64,000 nucleotides of DNA from Chloroflexota bacterium (GTDB taxonomy: Bacteria; Chloroflexota; Anaerolineae; UBA2200; JACIWT01), in assembly GCA_014360825.1 (NCBI GenBank), contig JACIWT010000009.1:1-64000 (forward strand), in the 5' to 3' direction. Positions 20,563-29,511 of this stretch are shown here, in pieces (the first letter of the stretch is position 1; each line of letters starts with the position of its first letter). The position numbers and the translations under genes were made by a program. The notes beneath the pieces are model-generated. The model was not told the origin of the DNA. It made no database searches and saw only the letters and a program-made list of their open reading frames with translations.

Positions 20563-21818
20563 ACCTCGAAGAAGCCATCCGACTATTAAATTGGCTCGAG
20601 GAAGAGCGACGTAAGGATAAGGCTCTTCTATCCGAGTTGCAGGCCACAGTAAAAAGCCAGTCCATTGTCCTGGAGGAACAGACCCAGAGGCTCCAAAGCC
20701 TCCAAGGGGAAATGACGCGCTTGCAAGGAGAGTTGGCTCGCTATGCTCAGTTCGAGGCTGCGATCCAAAACCTGCGGGCGGAGTTGGCCAATCAGGTAGA
20801 AGGGCTGCGCGAGGAGAGACGCATCTCTGAGGAACAGAAAGCGCGAGAAGCAAAGGCTCTGAATGAGCAGTTCAAACGCACTTTGGCGACGCTTCAGCAC
20901 AAGGTGGATGCGATGCCGGAATTCGAGCGCGCTATCGAACCCATCCGCCTTTCCAATGAGCGACTGATCAACGAGGTGGGACGATTGGCGGCGCAGGCTG
21001 AGGCCTTGGCAAGCCAAAACAGGGAGCAGAACGAACACATCGCGTTGCTATTGGAGTTCCAAGGATCTGTGAACCAGCGGCTCACGAACCTGGAGCAGCG
21101 AGTAGACACTCTGAGTCGTAAAGGCAGCAATCACGACGAGCGCCTGGCTTTCTTGATGGAGACCGTTGGGGGCGCCAACCAGCGACTGGGCGAAGTTCAA
21201 GAGGCGGTTAGGACTTTGCGCGCCAGGGCTGATGCTCTCGAGAGCCGTATGGATAGCCAGAGCACTCGCTATGATCAGCACATTGGGGCTCTTCGCGAGG
21301 CTTTTGATGTGAACAAGCGAGAGCAGGCCCAAGCGCTCGAGTCTATGCAACTTGCGCTCCAGCGGATGAAGACCATGATCACCGAGACGGACGCCACCGT
21401 GGCTGGCTGGCGTGATGAAATGGCGAACTGGCGCAAGCAGTACGAGATGTTCTTGGAACTTTACGAGCGGAACAAGAAGACCTTGTTTGATCTGCTTGAG
21501 ATCGAGAAATCCATGCGCCAGCAACAAGATGAGATGCGCGAACTACAGCGCGTTGCCACAGAGCGCCAAAAGAACGAACTGCTCGAGTGGCAGGACAGGC
21601 AAGCGAAGCTCGATGGTGCACAGGACGAACGCCTCTCACGCTTGGAGCGGGGGTGGCAAGAGATATCAGCGAACCTTGATGGACTTCATGCTGATCTGAA
21701 CGCGCGGGCTGTTGAGTTGTCCGAGGCGATTGCGAAGGTGTGGCAAGCGTGGAGGGGCACGCTCCAAGAGCAAATCGAGTTGTACAACCGATTAATGGAG
21801 GAGAACAGAGAACGTTAA
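20559..21818 (+). CDS. Large coiled-coil protein of unknown function
   Basis: This 419-residue protein is almost wholly predicted coiled coil, with heptads running from about residue 5 to the end (for example EEQTQRLQSLQGEMTRLQGE and TNLEQRVDTLSRKGSNHDER). It has no signal peptide, no membrane segment and no cysteine-rich motif. It is rich in Glu, Arg, Gln and Leu. The ATG overlaps the phoU stop as ATGA, so translation is coupled; selB starts two bases after its stop. It could be a structural or scaffold partner of PhoU, but coiled coils are poor guides to homology and I do not assign a function. Confidence 0.85.
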   Translation: MNLEEAIRLLNWLEEERRKDKALLSELQATVKSQSIVLEEQTQRLQSLQGEMTRLQGELARYAQFEAAIQNLRAELANQVEGLREERRISEEQKAREAKALNEQFKRTLATLQHKVDAMPEFERAIEPIRLSNERLINEVGRLAAQAEALASQNREQNEHIALLLEFQGSVNQRLTNLEQRVDTLSRKGSNHDERLAFLMETVGGANQRLGEVQEAVRTLRARADALESRMDSQSTRYDQHIGALREAFDVNKREQAQALESMQLALQRMKTMITETDATVAGWRDEMANWRKQYEMFLELYERNKKTLFDLLEIEKSMRQQQDEMRELQRVATERQKNELLEWQDRQAKLDGAQDERLSRLERGWQEISANLDGLHADLNARAVELSEAIAKVWQAWRGTLQEQIELYNRLMEENRER

Positions 21819-21819
21819 T

Positions 21820-23703
21820 ATGCATGTCCTTGGTACTGCGGGCCATGTGGACCACGGCAAATCTACCTTGGTAAAGGCTCTGACGGGTATTGACCCGGAC
21901 CGGCTCCGTGAAGAGAAGGAACGGGAGATGACCATTGACCTGGGCTTTGCATGGCTCACTCTGCCCAGCGGCTTGGAAGTCAGCATTGTGGATGTGCCCG
22001 GCCATGAGGATTTCATCAAGAATATGTTGGCTGGTGTGGGTGGAATAGATGTGGCACTATTTGTGATCGCTGCCGATGAGGGAGTGATGCCCCAGACACG
22101 TGAGCACCTGGCCATCCTGGATTTGCTGGGGGTGCACAATGGTGTAGTGGCCCTTACCAAAAGCGACCTTGTAAACGATCCTGAATGGCTGGCTTTAGTA
22201 GAAGCCGATATATCCGAATTGTTTGCGGGGACAACATTGGCAAACGCAGCCATCATCCCGGTTTCAGCGAAAACGGGCTATGGGCTGCCAGAGCTACTGG
22301 CTGAACTGGAACGCATCTTGAGCAATGTGCCGGAGCCTGCGGATTTGGGTCGCCCTCGGTTGCCCATTGACCGCGTTTTCACTGTAGCCGGCTTCGGGAC
22401 AGTGGTCACCGGTACATTGCTGGATGGTCAGTTGCACATCGGGCAGGAAGTCGAGATCCTGCCGCCAGGTATTCATACTCGTATCCGGGGTCTGCAAAGC
22501 CACAAGACGAAAATTGATGTGGCCAAGCCATCCAGTCGTGTGGCTGTGAACCTGACAGGCGTCTCCACTGAGCAGTTGGCACGGGGGCAGGTACTGACTC
22601 TACCTGGCTTGTTTGAGCCGACTCAGTTGGTGGATGCCCGCTTACGGCTGCTCCCGAGTGCTCCGAAGCCGCTGCGCCACGATGCATCTGTGGATCTGTT
22701 TCTCGATGCGGCTGTTGTGTCAGCAAGGGTGCGATTATTAGAGCACCGAGAACTCCTTCCCGGAGAGGAGGGCTGGGTCCAATTGCGCACTGAGGAGCCT
22801 ATCGTGGCCGCCCGTCAGGGCCGATTCATTGTTCGTCAAGCCTCGCCCAGCCTAACCCTTGGGGGTGGCACCATTGTCGATCCTCATCCTTCACGACGAT
22901 ACCGACGCTTTCGTCCGGAGGTGATCGCCCGGCTGGAACAGTTGGTTCATGGGACGCCGCAGGAAATATTGCTTAGCACGCTGGAACGCTTGGGGCCAGT
23001 GGAGGTCGCAGAACTAATGGAGGCGAGTGGGCTGAATCCCGCGGAGGCTGAAGGTGCACTCTCTGCTCTACACCAGAGCGGGCAGATCATCGTCTTTGGG
23101 AATGGCCTGTCCAGTGCCAGCTATGTGGTCACCACGGCCGGTTGGTCAGTGCTGGAGGAACGGCTGAGCGCGGTGTTGGCCAATTATCATCGTCAGTATC
23201 CTTTGCGGGTGGGGATGCCGCGCGAAGAACTCAAAAGCCGGTTAGGCCTGGCTACGCGGCTGTTCCAAGATGTATTGGCAATGGCAGTCTCCAAAGGGAT
23301 AATAGTCGAGGGCCAAGGGACAGTGCGTTTGGCCGATCACCGGGTGCAGTTGAGCCAGGAGCAACAGGCCAGGGTGAACGATTTGTTGGCCGCATTTGAC
23401 CGGGAGCCGTACGCCCCACCTTCTTATGCCGAGTGCGAGCAGGCAGTCGGGCCGGATGTACTGGCCACATTGTTCGAAAACAAGACCTTGATCCGATTGA
23501 GCGATTCTGTGGTTTTCCGCACCGAAGTCTATGAAAGGATGGTCGAGGCCGTTGTGCGTCGCATTCGCACCGAGGGCAAGATCACTTTGGCTCAGGTGCG
23601 CGATATGTTCGGCACGAGCCGGAAATACGCTCAGGCGCTATTAGAATATTTGGACGAGCAGCGGGTTACCCGGCGGGTAGGTGACGAACGGGTGTTGCGA
23701 TGA
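21820..23703 (+). CDS. selB: Selenocysteine-specific translation elongation factor
   Basis: This 627-residue GTPase delivers Sec-tRNA to UGA codons marked by a SECIS hairpin. G motifs are G1 GHVDHGKST (residues 7-15), G3 DVPGHEDF and G4 TKSD. They are followed by EF-Tu-like beta-barrel domains and a C-terminal array of winged helices that bind the SECIS. The start MHVLGTAGHVDHGK and the length are typical of SelB. The C-terminal segment VRRIRTEGKITLAQVRDMFG is the last winged helix. It starts two bases after the coiled-coil gene. Together with tRNA-Sec at 16746, it shows this organism reads UGA as selenocysteine. Confidence 0.95.
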   Translation: MHVLGTAGHVDHGKSTLVKALTGIDPDRLREEKEREMTIDLGFAWLTLPSGLEVSIVDVPGHEDFIKNMLAGVGGIDVALFVIAADEGVMPQTREHLAILDLLGVHNGVVALTKSDLVNDPEWLALVEADISELFAGTTLANAAIIPVSAKTGYGLPELLAELERILSNVPEPADLGRPRLPIDRVFTVAGFGTVVTGTLLDGQLHIGQEVEILPPGIHTRIRGLQSHKTKIDVAKPSSRVAVNLTGVSTEQLARGQVLTLPGLFEPTQLVDARLRLLPSAPKPLRHDASVDLFLDAAVVSARVRLLEHRELLPGEEGWVQLRTEEPIVAARQGRFIVRQASPSLTLGGGTIVDPHPSRRYRRFRPEVIARLEQLVHGTPQEILLSTLERLGPVEVAELMEASGLNPAEAEGALSALHQSGQIIVFGNGLSSASYVVTTAGWSVLEERLSAVLANYHRQYPLRVGMPREELKSRLGLATRLFQDVLAMAVSKGIIVEGQGTVRLADHRVQLSQEQQARVNDLLAAFDREPYAPPSYAECEQAVGPDVLATLFENKTLIRLSDSVVFRTEVYERMVEAVVRRIRTEGKITLAQVRDMFGTSRKYAQALLEYLDEQRVTRRVGDERVLR

Positions 23704-23713
23704 GGGGTGAACG

Positions 23714-24898
23714 GTGCCGCTGAAGTTGGGGGAAATCAGTCAGAGCATTTTGGAAATGGCGCGACAGGCTACCACTCCTGAGCGCCAGGCCTACATAGAG
23801 CGGGCACTGGAACTGTTGCACGCAATAGACCCCGAACTCCTACGTCACAAAATAGACGAACAGAAAGGGACCGCGGAACGCACCCCTTGGCTAGTCGCCC
23901 GGCCTATCGGCACTCTCAATGGCAAGTTCGCTGCTCCTAAGCCGCCACAGGATTTCAGTGTGGTCGCTGCAGATGGCTCTGCTATCCCACCTCAACGTTA
24001 TGGTCTAATGCCCTTCTTTGTTATTAACACCGGCTGCGCGGCACTCACTTATGGCGCGCATCCCGGCGCGGTGCTTGATTCTGAGACAAGGCTGTATTTT
24101 CGTGATGAGGAGCTCTACGCGTTGCCTGAAAGCCGTGACGGACCCATTGAGGCCGCAAGGTTGGGGGCAAAGATGGCGGTTGAAGAATTAGGCTATCTGC
24201 TAAGGGTAGTCCAAGGTGTGGAAAAACCTGCGATCGCACTGTACGACGGCTCCCTGATCCTGTGGCCGATTCAGAACGAGGTGCGAGAGGTACGGCAAAA
24301 GTTCGTGGGAGATTTTCTTGATAGCCTAGATGGGTTCCGAAGTTTGGGCGTCCCAATTGCCAGTTATATCAGTCACACCGATGCCCAAGACTTGGTGAAT
24401 GCCCTGCGCATTTGGCTGTGCGGGCGTCGACCGAGGAACTGCAAGGCTTGTGCGCAAGCCCCAACGGGGGCTCAAGAACTTTGTATGGGCTTGGCGAGCA
24501 TCCGCGATTATGCTCTATTAGCGAACCTGTTGGACCCGGGCGAGCGCACAGACTTGTTCGAGAGCCAGTCGGCGATCTTGCAAGGCTATCGACAACACAG
24601 AGTGCGGTTTTTCTATCTGAATGTGGGGGGAGAGATATCACGGGTAGAAGTGCCTGCCTGGGTGGCTGGCGATGAAGAGATGCTGGATCTCGTGCACGCG
24701 CTGATTGTAGACCAGTGTCGACGCAGCCCAGATCACCCGCCTTATCCACCGGCATTACAGGAGGCTCACGAGCAAGCAGTGATCCACACCGCCGAGCACC
24801 GTTTACTGGAGGAGATGATCGAACGGGCGCTGGCAGAACGGAATATCATACACGCGCGAGGGGCCAAAGATATCAGCAAAAGGAGAAGGGGAGTATGA
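23714..24898 (+). CDS. nurA: NurA-family DNA nuclease
   Basis: This 394-residue nuclease is expected to pair with HerA to resect DNA ends. The two acidic metal-site motifs are FSVVAADGSAIPP (Asp87) and AIALYDGSLILWP (Asp178), as in archaeal NurA. A cysteine set, C236-x6-C243-x2-C246-x10-C257, sits between the conserved parts and could bind zinc or an Fe-S cluster. The start is GTG, preceded by GAGGGGTGA, ten bases after the selB stop. It overlaps the next gene by four bases (ATGA), giving a nurA - HAS-barrel - herA operon. Confidence 0.88.
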   Translation: MPLKLGEISQSILEMARQATTPERQAYIERALELLHAIDPELLRHKIDEQKGTAERTPWLVARPIGTLNGKFAAPKPPQDFSVVAADGSAIPPQRYGLMPFFVINTGCAALTYGAHPGAVLDSETRLYFRDEELYALPESRDGPIEAARLGAKMAVEELGYLLRVVQGVEKPAIALYDGSLILWPIQNEVREVRQKFVGDFLDSLDGFRSLGVPIASYISHTDAQDLVNALRIWLCGRRPRNCKACAQAPTGAQELCMGLASIRDYALLANLLDPGERTDLFESQSAILQGYRQHRVRFFYLNVGGEISRVEVPAWVAGDEEMLDLVHALIVDQCRRSPDHPPYPPALQEAHEQAVIHTAEHRLLEEMIERALAERNIIHARGAKDISKRRRGV

Positions 24899-25494
24899 GA
24901 GTCGGTGAAATCATCGAGACGAGTTCCACCGGCTTGTGGGCTGAAAGTTTTGAGTTGAACCGCCCTCCCGCATTGGGTAGCCTGGTTTCGGTTCGGTTGC
25001 CAGGCGAATCTATAGATATCTATGCCGTTGTGTCACACGGTAGGACAGCGGGTCTAGACCCAAGCCGTCATGCGGTGCGACGAGGAACCGAGGATCTACA
25101 AGACGAGCGCATTTACGCTGCACACCCGGAATTGGAGCACATCTTACGCACAGAATTCGCCGCTGTTTTCGTGGGCTATCGCCGTGAAGGACATGTGTAT
25201 CAGCATTTGCCCCCCCAACCCCCACCGCTCCACTTCTCCGTACACGCATGTGAAGCCGAAGAGGTCAAGCGATTCAGCGCAAATCTCCGTTACCTTCGGT
25301 TGCTGCTTACTGCCACAGGTGAAGTGCCGGTAGAGCAGTTACTTGCCGCCCACATCCGCCAGGTTTACGAGTTGCGAGGGCGCGATAGAAATTGGCTGGA
25401 AGTGGCGGCGCGCGAGGTGGCCGCGTTGCTTAAAACGAATTCCGAATCGCTTATGACCGTTCTATATGCTATTGAGCCAGAGGGTGAAATATGA
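24895..25494 (+). CDS. HAS-barrel-like protein between nurA and herA
   Basis: This 199-residue protein has a first 100 residues that resemble the HAS barrel found at the N-terminus of HerA ATPases: MRVGEIIETSSTGLWAESFE, then GSLVSVRLPGESIDIYAVVSHGR as a beta-rich module. The second half is helical (LRYLRLLLTATGEVPVEQLL onward). It has no nuclease or ATPase motif. It overlaps nurA at its start and herA at its end by four bases each, so the three are made together. It may be an adaptor in the NurA-HerA complex. I infer this from position and the barrel-like pattern only. Confidence 0.8.
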   Translation: MRVGEIIETSSTGLWAESFELNRPPALGSLVSVRLPGESIDIYAVVSHGRTAGLDPSRHAVRRGTEDLQDERIYAAHPELEHILRTEFAAVFVGYRREGHVYQHLPPQPPPLHFSVHACEAEEVKRFSANLRYLRLLLTATGEVPVEQLLAAHIRQVYELRGRDRNWLEVAAREVAALLKTNSESLMTVLYAIEPEGEI

Positions 25495-27116
25495 AAGGTA
25501 CAAGATTGGGCGTGGTAACTTCAGGGGCCTATAATACCGGGTTAACGGTGCGACTGGACCCCGATGTATCCACCGAAAACCTGCGCATTGGCGATTTCGT
25601 CGTTGTGGAAGGTGAGCAGAATCTGTATTTCAGCCTGGTAGAAGACATGGAATTGGCCACTTCCGATCCGCGACTGTTGGTAGACCCACCGCGCGATGCG
25701 TCCTCTCTCGTCAGGAGGGCGTTGGCTGGCACGAATGCCTATGGTACCGTCGTCGTGCGCCCTCTACTAATGATGGAGAAGGTTGATTACGAGAGTTTGA
25801 CATTGCAGCAGGAAGAGACGAGGCCACAGCCTGTGCGTACTATACCGATGCACTTCGCTATTCTGCGCGAGGCAAATGAGGTGGATTTCGCCACAGTTTT
25901 CGGCAATGAGAGCCAGCGCAACTACTTCGCCATGGGAACGCCACTGACTATGGATATCCCGATCTGCCTCCGGCTCGACCGCTTTGCTGAGCGCTCCAGT
26001 GGCATTTTCGGCCAATCGGGCACAGGTAAGAGTTTCCTGGCCAGGCTCCTGCTTTGTGGCATTATCCAATCTGGCGTGGCGGTTAACCTTATCTTTGATA
26101 TGCACGACGAGTACGCTTTCGATAAGCAGACCGAGGACAAGAGGTGGGTGAAAGGCTTACGGCAACTCTTTGGTTCGCGAGTACGAGTTTATTCGCTGGA
26201 TGAGAGGGACCAGGCCCAGCGCGGTCGCAATGTAGATGTGGTGCTGAAGATAGGCTTAAACCAAATTGAGGCTCAGGATGTGGTGCTCCTGGCCGAAGAG
26301 TTGAATCTGCGTCAGACCACAGAAGCCACAATAGGCTTGCTCTCCGATCAGTATAAGGAGTCGTGGCTCCAGCGGTTGCTGAGCATGGAACCTGTGGAGT
26401 TGGAGGAATTCTGCGCGACGAGTGGCGCCCATCCTGGCTCTGTGGCTGCTCTTCAGCGCAATCTGAAACGCATTGGTCGCCAACCGTACATTGTGCCGGA
26501 GGCACCTTTCTCGGTGATAGATGACATGGTGAATACCCTGGATACTGGCCAGCATATTATCCTGACTTTCGGGCGGCATAACAGCGTTCTGGACTACATC
26601 TTGGTGGCGAATCTCATCACTCGCCGGGTACGCAAATTGTACGAAGAGAAGATGCGTAGGTTTGAAGAGACGCGAGACGAAGCCGACCGCCCACGTCAAC
26701 TGATGATCACTATCGAAGAGGCACACAAGTTTTTGAACCCGGCAGTATCACGACAAACCATTTTTGGTACCATCGCCCGTGAAATGCGCAAATATAACGT
26801 CACCCTCCTGGTAATTGACCAACGTCCGAGCGGGATTGATACTGAGGTAATGTCACAATTGGGCACCCGCGTCAGCGGAAAACTCACTGAACAGCGGGAT
26901 ATTGATGCCGTATTGACAGGGGTGGCTAGTCGTGAGACCGTTCGTAGTGCCTTGGCGAGTTTGGATACAAGGCAGGAAGTTGTGATGATCGGCCATGCAG
27001 TGCCGATGCCCGTGGTGGTGCGCACCAGAAACTATGATGAGAACTTTTATGCCACCCTCACAGCCCGCCGTGATGTGAAAGAAGACGTAATGGACCTCTA
27101 TGGACCACAAAAGTGA
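25491..27116 (+). CDS. herA: HerA-family DNA translocase/helicase
   Basis: This 541-residue hexameric ATPase of the HerA-FtsK group has a HAS barrel at residues 1-110, Walker A GQSGTGKS (174-181), Walker B region RQLMITIEEAHKFLNP, and the arginine-rich C-terminal SQLGTRVSGKLTEQRDIDAV. In archaea HerA drives NurA in double-strand break end resection (established there); in bacteria HerA-NurA pairs are less studied and some take part in phage defence. The gene overlaps the HAS-barrel gene by four bases and is followed 19 bases later by an RHH-LysM gene. Confidence 0.93.
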   Translation: MKGTRLGVVTSGAYNTGLTVRLDPDVSTENLRIGDFVVVEGEQNLYFSLVEDMELATSDPRLLVDPPRDASSLVRRALAGTNAYGTVVVRPLLMMEKVDYESLTLQQEETRPQPVRTIPMHFAILREANEVDFATVFGNESQRNYFAMGTPLTMDIPICLRLDRFAERSSGIFGQSGTGKSFLARLLLCGIIQSGVAVNLIFDMHDEYAFDKQTEDKRWVKGLRQLFGSRVRVYSLDERDQAQRGRNVDVVLKIGLNQIEAQDVVLLAEELNLRQTTEATIGLLSDQYKESWLQRLLSMEPVELEEFCATSGAHPGSVAALQRNLKRIGRQPYIVPEAPFSVIDDMVNTLDTGQHIILTFGRHNSVLDYILVANLITRRVRKLYEEKMRRFEETRDEADRPRQLMITIEEAHKFLNPAVSRQTIFGTIAREMRKYNVTLLVIDQRPSGIDTEVMSQLGTRVSGKLTEQRDIDAVLTGVASRETVRSALASLDTRQEVVMIGHAVPMPVVVRTRNYDENFYATLTARRDVKEDVMDLYGPQK

Positions 27117-27134
27117 TGAAAAGGAGCTAGCAAT

Positions 27135-27476
27135 ATGGGAGCAGCACGAGGAAAGGGTAGCAAAGCAGATTATCATCGCTTACTGATCTCGGTGGAAAGG
27201 GAGCAGTTCCGCCGTTTCAAAGCCCGGGCGGCGTTTGAGAACCTCTCCATGAGTGAACTCTCACGCCGATTCATTGACCAATGGCTGGGTGATTGGGGTG
27301 AACGTCTTGTTCCCTACACTGTGCAAGAAGGCGACACCATGGCCAGTATCGCGCGCAAATTCTATGGTGATGCCAAGCGACTCTGGGGCATCCTCTACTT
27401 CAATGGTCTGGACGAGCCCGATGATATCGTCCCGGGCCAGGAACTTCTTATCCCCGAACCAAAGATACAGCCGTAG
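27135..27476 (+). CDS. RHH-like DNA-binding domain fused to a LysM domain
   Basis: This 113-residue protein has two parts. Residues 15-52 (YHRLLISVEREQFRRFKARA to LSMSELSRRFIDQWL) look like a ribbon-helix-helix module: a strand, then two helices. Residues 60-110 are a LysM domain: PYTVQEGDTMASIARKFYG, then DDIVPGQELLIPEP. There is no signal peptide or membrane segment, so the LysM would be cytoplasmic, which is unusual because LysM normally binds peptidoglycan. The ribosome site AAGGAG precedes the ATG and the gene follows herA by 19 bases. It may be a regulator or a structural partner of the HerA complex. Confidence 0.8.
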   Translation: MGAARGKGSKADYHRLLISVEREQFRRFKARAAFENLSMSELSRRFIDQWLGDWGERLVPYTVQEGDTMASIARKFYGDAKRLWGILYFNGLDEPDDIVPGQELLIPEPKIQP

Positions 27477-27630
27477 ATCGCTTTCACCGGACATAAGCGC
27501 GGCAAAAAGGAGGTCTAACTCCAAACAGCCTTGCTGGTCTCTAGTTGTGCATAGAGGGGGTACACAGTTACATACATCTCAAAGGCTTCAAAACCCCATC
27601 TTGGGGGTAATTGTAGGCGTGTAAAATCAG

Positions 27631-27668
27631 AACTGGGGGTATCAATTAATGACGACCCCCAGTTTTCC
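27631..27668. terminator. Terminator between convergent RHH-LysM and subtilase genes
   Basis: AACTGGGGGT (27631-27640) pairs exactly with ACCCCCAGTT (27655-27664), 14-nt loop, followed by T's. The A/T ends allow use from either strand. Confidence 0.75.
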
Positions 27669-27675
27669 TTCTCAA

Positions 27676-28866
27676 TCACAGCCCCAGCGTTCTCAGCAGG
27701 CCAATTAGGCATCCAGGGCCGGGCGGCGTTGGCCCAGGGGGTGGACTCTCGTCCTTATAGGCTAGATACGCATCAGTGCGGCCAGCTCCTTGGCTGTTAG
27801 GGTCCAGACCCAGGTCTACTGCCGCTTTCTTGAGGCGAGCCTTGATATCCGTGGGGCTCAGGGTGGGGTATGCCTGTAATAGTAGTGCTGCGATCCCGGT
27901 GGCGTGGGGGGTTGCCATGCTCGTGCCCGCGGCCTGGGTGTAATTCGCATCTATGGGTGTGCCCATCGTCGTCCCTTTGGCACGGCATGAAATAATAGCA
28001 ACACCGGGTAGGACGATGTCTGGCTTCAAGCGGCCATCACTGGTTGGACCACGGCTGGAAAAACTGGCTAGATTGTCGTTATCATCTGTAGCGCCTACTG
28101 TGATCACATTCTCTGCGGCTCCGGGTGCTCCTATCGTGGAGGCGCCGGGCCCGAAATTGCCTGCCGCCACACAGACGACGATTCCCCTGTTGACCAATTC
28201 GTTGCAGGCAGTGGACAGAGCGTCTGTGCCATCCGAGGGGCCTGGGCTGCCCAGCGAAAGATTGACGACCTTTACACCCTGCTGCCATGCCCAATCGAGC
28301 CCTTGTATCACTTGGCTCATATAGCCTGTGCCGTCGGCAGCCAGTACCTTTGCCGCATAGATGCTTGCTCCAGGTGCGACGCCGCGGTATTTTGCTCCCG
28401 CCCCTGCCGCAATGCCTGCTACGTGGGTGCCGTGGCCGTTGTCGTCATCAGGACTGGGCCCCGCGAAACTGATTTTACCGGCGATGCGCCCAGCGAAATC
28501 CGGGTGCAGTGGGTCAATGCCCGTGTCCACGATAGCAATGGGAATACCGGTACCAGTGAAGCCCGCGGCCCACACCTTCGGCACTTGGATATGGGGCACA
28601 GAAACGTCCAGGCAGGTGTACACAATAAGGTCTTCCCAAATGTATTCGACTGTGGGGTCAGCGGCAATTCGCCTGATCTGTTCGTCTGAGGCCTTCATCG
28701 CTGCCGCTGGGATCAGCTGAAGGTGTTGCACTGCAGCGATGCCTGCTACAAACCTAGCCTGGACTCCCACCTCCGGTCTATATTTCACGATGATGCGTTT
28801 CTTTTCAATGGCCCTGCTGGGTTCCGCCATTGCGGCTACGAGGCCCGGTGAGATTTTCTCATTCAT
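27676..28866 (-). CDS. Subtilisin-family (S8) serine protease without signal peptide
   Basis: This 396-residue protease has its catalytic triad in order: Asp in IAIVDTGIDPLHPDF, His in DDNGHGTHVAGIAAG, and Ser in AAGTSMATPHATGIAAL. Residues 20-100 (RIIVKYRPEVGVQARFVAGI to IRRIAADPTVEYIWED) are an I9-like prodomain. The N-terminus MNEKISPGLVAAMAEPSRAI is not a signal peptide, so the protein would stay in the cytoplasm or use another route. The ATG lies within the end of the small gene upstream (8-base overlap), indicating coupled translation with a separately encoded I9-like protein. Confidence 0.93.
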   Translation of the reverse strand: MNEKISPGLVAAMAEPSRAIEKKRIIVKYRPEVGVQARFVAGIAAVQHLQLIPAAAMKASDEQIRRIAADPTVEYIWEDLIVYTCLDVSVPHIQVPKVWAAGFTGTGIPIAIVDTGIDPLHPDFAGRIAGKISFAGPSPDDDNGHGTHVAGIAAGAGAKYRGVAPGASIYAAKVLAADGTGYMSQVIQGLDWAWQQGVKVVNLSLGSPGPSDGTDALSTACNELVNRGIVVCVAAGNFGPGASTIGAPGAAENVITVGATDDNDNLASFSSRGPTSDGRLKPDIVLPGVAIISCRAKGTTMGTPIDANYTQAAGTSMATPHATGIAALLLQAYPTLSPTDIKARLKKAAVDLGLDPNSQGAGRTDAYLAYKDESPPPGPTPPGPGCLIGLLRTLGL

Positions 28867-29140
28867 AATCGTTCCCTATTCCCCACTCCTGAGCACTGAC
28901 CACTGAGTCCGGCTCAATTCGCTCGACCCAAGGCTCCTCGGCGAGACGAAGTGCCTGGGCGGAAGTACATTCCATTGCCACGGCGTTGATAAGCCACAGG
29001 CGGCTGAGTACATGGCAACCCATTGCTTCTAAACGGGCTGCCTGCTCTTCTATATCCCCCTTGACGCGCACGATAAGCCTCACCGGAAAAGTCCCACCCT
29101 CTTCCAGTTTGCGCACCAGGTTTAGCTCTATTACACCCAT
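28859..29140 (-). CDS. Small I9-like protein coupled to the subtilase
   Basis: This 93-residue protein has the core FPVRLIVRVKGDIEEQAARL, LSRLWLINAVAMECTSAQAL and EEPWVERIEPDSVV. This has the beta-alpha-beta pattern and the closing W-V-E-x-I-E-x-D-x-x-V of peptidase inhibitor I9 / subtilisin propeptides. It may act as a folding chaperone or inhibitor of the protease encoded next, which also has its own I9-like prodomain. I chose the ATG at 29140, preceded by GGGGAGTTGAGA. It starts five bases after the acpS stop, within one operon. Confidence 0.75.
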   Translation of the reverse strand: MGVIELNLVRKLEEGGTFPVRLIVRVKGDIEEQAARLEAMGCHVLSRLWLINAVAMECTSAQALRLAEEPWVERIEPDSVVSAQEWGIGNDYE

Positions 29141-29145
29141 GTATC

Positions 29146-29511
29146 TCAACTCCCCATGGCGACGACCATCGCTACTGCATTCTCGCAGGAATGGGAAAGG
29201 CTGACGTCAAGTTCTGTCAATCCCAGGTATTCGGCGCGCGCCTGCGCTTGTCCATGCAAGCGTACTAGTGGCTTGCCGCGTTCATCACCAAGAATTTCCA
29301 TCTCGCGCCAGGAGATGCCTTGCATCCCTGTGCCCAGGGCTTTGGATACGGCCTCTTTGGCAGCAAAACGTGCTGCCAACTCGGGCACGTGCCCCCGGCT
29401 GTACGCTACCTCCGCGGGTGTGTAAACTCGTTTCAAAAAACGATCTCCCCAGCGGGCGATCACTCGCTCAATGCGCTCTATCTCGATGATGTCCACGCCT
29501 ACACGGACCAT
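29146..29511 (-). CDS. acpS: Holo-[acyl-carrier-protein] synthase
   Basis: This 121-residue enzyme transfers the phosphopantetheine arm of coenzyme A to acyl carrier protein. The family motifs are MVRVGVDIIEIERIE at the N-terminus (metal-binding Asp), ARFAAKEAVSKALGTG in the middle (Glu and Lys) and LDVSLSHSCENAVAMVVA at the end. The length is standard. It sits between the UDP-sugar dehydrogenase and the I9-like gene with gaps of 23 and 5 bases, so it is part of the same unit without an obvious functional link. Confidence 0.94.
   Translation of the reverse strand: MVRVGVDIIEIERIERVIARWGDRFLKRVYTPAEVAYSRGHVPELAARFAAKEAVSKALGTGMQGISWREMEILGDERGKPLVRLHGQAQARAEYLGLTELDVSLSHSCENAVAMVVAMGS

Follow-up and report, generated by a model that had tools for sequence, protein, structure and literature searches.

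A free-standing HAS-barrel protein as a probable third subunit of the NurA-HerA machine in Chloroflexota

The nurA-HAS-herA locus

The window analysed here is a stretch of 64,000 nucleotides from a Chloroflexota bacterium (assembly GCA_014360825.1, contig JACIWT010000009.1, positions 1 to 64,000 of the forward strand), and the subject of the present work is a module of three genes within it, in which nurA and herA belong to a single operon and overlap through a small intervening gene whose product is predicted to be a free-standing HAS barrel. The features of the locus are the following.

21820..23703, forward strand: selB, with SelB domains by Pfam; the neighbour 5' of nurA, listed as context and lying outside the unit
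23714..24898, forward strand: nurA, GTG start, 394 amino acids; Pfam NurA domain (PF09376) at 87.1 bits
24895..24898, forward strand: ATGA overlap of the nurA stop and the HAS-gene start, read in the sequence
24895..25494, forward strand: free HAS-barrel gene, ATG start, 199 amino acids; predicted barrel at residues 1-118, helices at 121-193
25491..25494, forward strand: ATGA overlap of the HAS-gene stop and the herA start, read in the sequence
25491..27116, forward strand: herA, ATG start, 541 amino acids; DUF87 at 94.5 bits, HAS-barrel at 26.0 bits
27135..27476, forward strand: RHH-LysM gene, ATG start, 113 amino acids; LysM at 39.2 bits; a downstream neighbour, outside the functional unit

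A gap of 10 bases separates the end of selB at 23703 from the start of nurA, and one of 18 bases separates the herA stop from the start of the RHH-LysM gene. An earlier reading of this DNA, made from the sequence alone, had treated the four genes from nurA to the RHH-LysM gene as one unit; both of the ATGA overlaps that it described are present, but the distance to the fourth gene is 18 bases and not the 19 that it gave. The core-genome location that it proposed agrees with the chromosomal site of the locus.

Predicted fold of the free HAS protein

The 199-residue product of the middle gene has no credible match in Pfam, NCBIfam or PADLOC, and it does not match the Pfam HAS-barrel model (PF09378) at E-values up to 1; no catalytic signature was recognised in it. 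Its AlphaFold2 model, built with 38 homologues, has a predicted local distance difference test score (pLDDT) of 93.7 and a predicted template modelling score of 0.89, and it contains strands at residues 2-9, 13-18, 30-35, 40-53, 84-97, 100-102 and 115-118, two short helices that interrupt the barrel (71-76, 80-83), and a helical tail over residues 121-193. When this model was compared with the PDB using Foldseek, the best 50 matches listed were all chains of the HerA family, with E-values of about 1e-5 and a probability of 1.00, and these listed matches include the HerA proteins of Sulfolobus, Deinococcus and Thermococcus, HerA proteins linked to SIR2 and to DUF4297, and TdpA. The template modelling scores normalised by query length are only 0.35-0.46, which is to be expected if the helical tail is not common to the HerA matches. 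The model and the structure search support the assignment of the protein as a free HAS barrel followed by a tail of helices, which had originally been a guess from the sequence. The protein constitutes a separate family.

NurA and HerA

The product of nurA is the sole NurA match in this genome, and it carries the RNase H-like NurA domain over residues 82-357, at 87.1 bits against a Pfam cut-off of 21. Residue D87 is invariant in 24 aligned sequences and D178 is kept in at least 90% of them; both are taken to be acidic metal-binding ligands of the NurA family. The protein also has a cluster of four cysteines (C236, C243, C246 and C257, spaced C-x6-C-x2-C-x10-C in the window), which is kept almost throughout the 14 sequences closest to that of the window, with one position lost or unreadable in each of two of them, and which is missing from the 10 more distant sequences. 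This pattern suggests that one clade of NurA may hold a zinc or iron-sulphur site.

HerA has a DUF87 central domain (94.5 bits) and an N-terminal HAS barrel of its own over residues 7-92, at 26.0 bits against a Pfam cut-off of 25.2. In the alignment of relatives, G174 and G177-K180 of the Walker A motif and E409 and E410 of the Walker B motif are invariant. The scores against the full-length NCBI models for repair and anti-phage HerA are 76 and 75 bits, far under their cut-off of 800, so the HerA of the window is assigned to a separate HerA lineage. A fusion of HAS and HerA at one related locus (L065), which was suggested by a long open frame, was rejected on finding a stop codon between them.

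Co-occurrence and gene order in Chloroflexota

Homologues of the window-type HAS protein were found in 43 of 60 relatives, and one scan of the genome_contigs collection returned a single relative. Across 301 Chloroflexota genomes, counted with drafts included and relatedness uncorrected, the computed distributions of the three proteins are nearly the same: the window-type HAS protein is present in 117 genomes, a strong NurA match in 117 and a strong HerA match in 118, with all three together in 113. The mismatches are few, comprising three genomes with HAS and no strong HerA, two with HAS and no strong NurA, and four with a strong HerA and no HAS.

Gene order is likewise conserved. Among the 117 genomes with the window-type protein, NurA and HAS are adjacent on the same strand in 80, HAS and HerA in 61, and all three in 36; herA lies farther away or on a different contig in the remaining genomes. 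Since the two adjacencies recur in so many genomes, the order found in the window is not a product of chance. The nurA-HAS junction is overlapping or spaced within 100 bases at 28 of 32 related loci, and an overlap of four bases occurs at 8 of these 32 junctions and at 2 of 23 HAS-herA junctions. The full order selB-nurA-HAS-herA is also found at loci L033, L034, L035, L036, L050 and L056, at the last of which the HAS protein is just 29% identical to that of the window, yet selB still precedes nurA. The proposal of the sequence-only reading that the HAS protein is an additional partner of NurA-HerA is thus borne out by co-occurrence and recurring adjacency; structure prediction has preserved the relation to HAS barrels, and the gene order is not unique to this genome.

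A sister HAS type, its linkage to Rad50 and Mre11, and haloarchaeal plasmids

A divergent sister type of the HAS protein occurs in Chloroflexota genomes that have weaker, divergent NurA matches. The two types form one family (97.7% in the profile comparison, E = 1.3e-12), and the model of the sister type, with a pLDDT of 84.0, again matches HerA barrels in a structure search. The sister type was found in 58 of the 301 genomes, after the exclusion of one more marginal match, and a HAS protein of either type in 173. With the two types pooled, HAS and NurA occur together in 169 genomes, HAS alone in 4 and NurA alone in 8. The profiles of both types match in G101, at two separate loci, and in G134, at one common gene.

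At all five of the sister-type loci that were read (L103, L104, L105, L106 and L118) a protein of HAS size adjoins nurA ahead of herA, and a large gene lies directly 5' of nurA. At three of these loci, L103, L105 and L118, the large gene was analysed with Pfam and identified as an SMC/Rad50-like ATPase, and in L118 a gene for an Mre11-type phosphoesterase precedes it. An additional gene stands between HAS and herA in L103, where it is aldolase-like by Pfam, and in L106.

Homologues of the sister-type protein are also found on four haloarchaeal plasmids, with E-values from 3e-17 to 8e-9. Three of these (L123, L124 and L125) carry genes annotated as a metallophosphoesterase, an SMC family ATPase, NurA, a "hypothetical protein" (the HAS protein) and a HerA-like ATP-binding protein, with a gene for a DEAD/DEAH helicase or a phospholipase D upstream of this mre11-rad50-nurA-HAS-herA set, and on the fourth the HAS and HerA genes adjoin. 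Pfam confirms the Rad50-like, Mre11-like, NurA and HerA proteins of the Natrinema plasmid. The plasmid-borne set could be a mobile module for repair or defence.

Joint loss of the three genes, and the surrounding genes

Computed comparison of related genomes indicates that nurA, HAS and herA have been lost together. In genome G006 (locus L108) the gene for a coiled-coil protein and selB come first, then 0.4 kb that lacks all three genes, and then the RHH-LysM gene, and in G001 (L107) only a C-terminal remnant of herA is left, beside the RHH-LysM gene. Searches of the whole of G001, G004 and G006, which are drafts of 82-95% completeness, found neither HAS nor NurA. The RHH-LysM gene was rejected as the source of a fourth subunit, because it persists in L108 and L107 after the loss of the other three, and it is accordingly regarded as a neighbour of the system and not a part of it. 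Of the sequence-only reading, the conserved order nurA-HAS-herA is supported, and the inclusion of the fourth gene in the unit is not.

Close relatives of the RHH-LysM protein were found only in the sister family and in one further genome. Its LysM domain scores 39.2 bits against a Pfam threshold of 20.9, and its RHH part is weak in the window protein (12-15 bits, below cut-offs) and clear in relatives, where a ParG RHH domain reaches 29-40 bits against 21.4. The fusion of an RHH domain to LysM is an odd combination. In the sister family, relatives of about 550 amino acids (L034:10321-11997, L033:10321-11970 and L036:4699-6318) contain two RHH-LysM units, and the C-terminal region of these doubled proteins is weakly DUF5722-like, below the cut-off.

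On the other side of the locus, a gene at 20565-21818, flanked by phoU and selB, encodes a long coiled-coil protein whose homologues precede selB in L034, L036 and L108. Downstream, on the reverse strand, a gene for a subtilisin-like protease (27676-28866, 232 bits) is overlapped by a small gene upstream of it (28859-29149) whose product resembles the peptidase-inhibitor I9 propeptide at 17.7 bits, which is below the cut-off. Between the RHH-LysM gene and this convergent protease gene, at about 27627-27665, a GC-rich inverted repeat followed by a run of T (ctgggggta...cccccagtttt) was spotted by eye and is a possible terminator; it is absent among the scanned hits.

Discussion

The locus probably encodes a NurA-HerA machine of three subunits for the processing of DNA ends, in which the free HAS protein would be a dedicated third subunit that docks or adapts NurA on the HerA ring. 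The machine is probably three-part in these genomes because the HAS protein accompanies both NurA and HerA in most Chloroflexota genomes with this pair, and is also found beside them in some haloarchaea. We infer physical binding, the position of the protein in the complex and its action as a subunit, as well as the function of the whole in repair. HerA is the DNA-pumping hexamer and NurA the nuclease, and the free HAS protein, which combines the docking fold of HerA with a helical tail, would be placed at the HerA-NurA junction, either on the ring itself or on NurA. Action at this junction is the simplest proposal because the protein has the same fold as the docking part, is made with NurA and HerA, and is kept with both. 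There it may adapt the mismatch between six HerA and two NurA subunits, or hold and switch NurA, and its tail may make contact with NurA, with DNA or with a further repair factor.

The known structures provide the model for such docking. In the Deinococcus radiodurans complex, one NurA dimer sits on the HAS barrels of six HerA subunits (6:2), which contact NurA and hold it (PMC9960219), and in that of Thermococcus kodakarensis a NurA dimer is likewise seated on six HAS barrels, with contact made through the alpha1 helices of the barrels (PMC12977600). The reported D. radiodurans complex consists of two proteins, whereas the window adds a free HAS protein, and NurA of the window type has the cysteine cluster. 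The free protein shares the fold of the PF09378 barrel by structure comparison, but it stands alone, has a helical tail and no ATPase, and is too distant in sequence for the Pfam model.

The machine would most likely trim broken chromosome ends for recombination. SbcD is present in the host genome, its gene lying elsewhere on the same contig, while the PDDEXK_1 domain of AddAB/RecB-type nucleases was not found in this genome (a draft, estimated to be 98% complete) and is present in 12 of 14 control genomes; NurA-HerA may therefore carry the work of end processing in this host.

Several observations weigh against this interpretation. In Deinococcus and Thermus, NurA and HerA function as a pair, so that such a machine does not in principle require a third subunit. 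The herA gene does not adjoin HAS in about half of the genomes, and the HAS protein may therefore belong mainly to NurA; the supporting counts, moreover, draw on drafts and on genomes of uncorrected relatedness. When profiles of the free HAS protein and of the HerA N-terminus were compared, the expected region aligned but the match was not significant, so that the identification of the barrel rests on predicted structure. The HerA-NurA of T. kodakarensis cleaves both DNA strands, and the authors of that study doubt a role in end resection (PMC12977600). Deletions in Deinococcus and Thermus have a mild effect on damage resistance or even improve it (PMC9960219).

The same predicted fold and gene order could be explained by roles other than that of a structural subunit. 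The free HAS protein might regulate NurA negatively, as a decoy barrel that either caps it or rivals the HerA barrels until cutting is needed, as would suit a protein that has the fold of the HerA docking domain, lacks a recognised catalytic signature, and is encoded on the same message as NurA and ahead of herA; its strict co-occurrence with NurA and HerA suits a subunit equally well, and we judge the regulator to be improbable. The chances are similarly low that the barrel and tail bind DNA at broken ends and recruit the HerA ring to these sites: HAS barrels have been grouped with the small beta-barrel DNA-binding domains (BrxHI, PMC12839542), and the linkage to Rad50 and Mre11, which bind ends, would fit a loading factor of this kind, but in the solved complexes of HerA and NurA it is the HAS barrel that docks protein. 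A split HerA, in which the free barrel stands in for a degenerate N-terminal barrel of the window HerA, would account both for the HerA-barrel fold of the free protein and for the position of its gene immediately upstream of herA; this explanation is very improbable and was rejected, since HerA retains its own barrel above the Pfam cut-off and its N-terminus is conserved across 18 relatives.

A separate question is whether the system serves repair or phage defence, both of which the sequence-only reading had considered. An anti-phage module in which NurA, HAS and HerA capture and degrade foreign DNA, as HerA does with SIR2 or DUF4297, is unlikely, though not without support: HerA matches the generic PADLOC HerA models at up to 94 bits, the three genes are found together on haloarchaeal plasmids downstream of a helicase or phospholipase-D gene, and an antiviral role has been suggested by the authors of the T. 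kodakarensis study (PMC12977600). The HerA-SIR2 and HerA-DUF4297 systems resemble the present one in having a HerA ring with a docked partner, and the best structure-search matches of the free HAS protein include their chains; their partner, however, is SIR2 or DUF4297, neither NurA nor a free HAS protein, and the window HerA, at 75 bits, is far under the 800 bits set as the cut-off for anti-phage HerA at NCBI. PADLOC gives no match for NurA or HAS, the sister operons hold Rad50 and Mre11, and the presence of HAS in 173 of 301 genomes resembles that of a core gene rather than of a patchy defence island. No defence partner (SIR2, DUF4297 or other) was recognised beside herA with PADLOC or among the neighbouring genes, in agreement with the sequence-only reading. 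An origin from a mobile element or virus was rejected, as searches of plasmids and viral contigs gave no match to the HAS protein of the window, those of viral contigs gave none to HerA, and there is no significant viral fold match. Repair is favoured over defence because the evidence of the Rad50-linked sister operons, the core-genome spread, the loss pattern and the PDDEXK_1 domain not found in the host leans in that direction.

A broader proposal can be made only tentatively, and we consider it possible but rather less than evenly likely. In much of bacteria and some archaea, the free HAS protein would be an ancient and obligatory subunit of NurA-HerA, either lying as a layer that separates the HerA ring from the NurA dimer or swapping for subunits of the ring, and gating the nuclease, and the five-gene set mre11-rad50-nurA-HAS-herA would be the fullest form of the system, common to Chloroflexota and Halobacteria. 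The archaeal herA-mre11-rad50-nurA operon of Thermococcus and Sulfolobus offers a parallel, as the sister Chloroflexota loci and the haloarchaeal plasmids similarly group Rad50-like (and Mre11) genes with nurA and herA, whereas the window locus is without mre11 and rad50; no mention of an extra HAS gene between nurA and herA was found in the literature searched. NurA, HerA and the HAS barrel are already known, and what is new is the free-standing HAS protein as their companion, of which no description was found in a literature search that excluded the FtsK-HerA survey of Iyer et al. (2004).

Reports of bacterial NurA-HerA have come mainly from Deinococcus-Thermus, where the system is one of two proteins, while here the pair is seen to be widespread in Chloroflexota and nearly always accompanied by a third protein that has no name in Pfam, NCBIfam or PADLOC. 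The finding ties a bacterial Rad50/Mre11 operon both to the break-repair operon of archaea and to plasmids of haloarchaea. The cellular role of NurA-HerA is disputed between resection and antiviral degradation, and a missing subunit could explain the conflicting activities.

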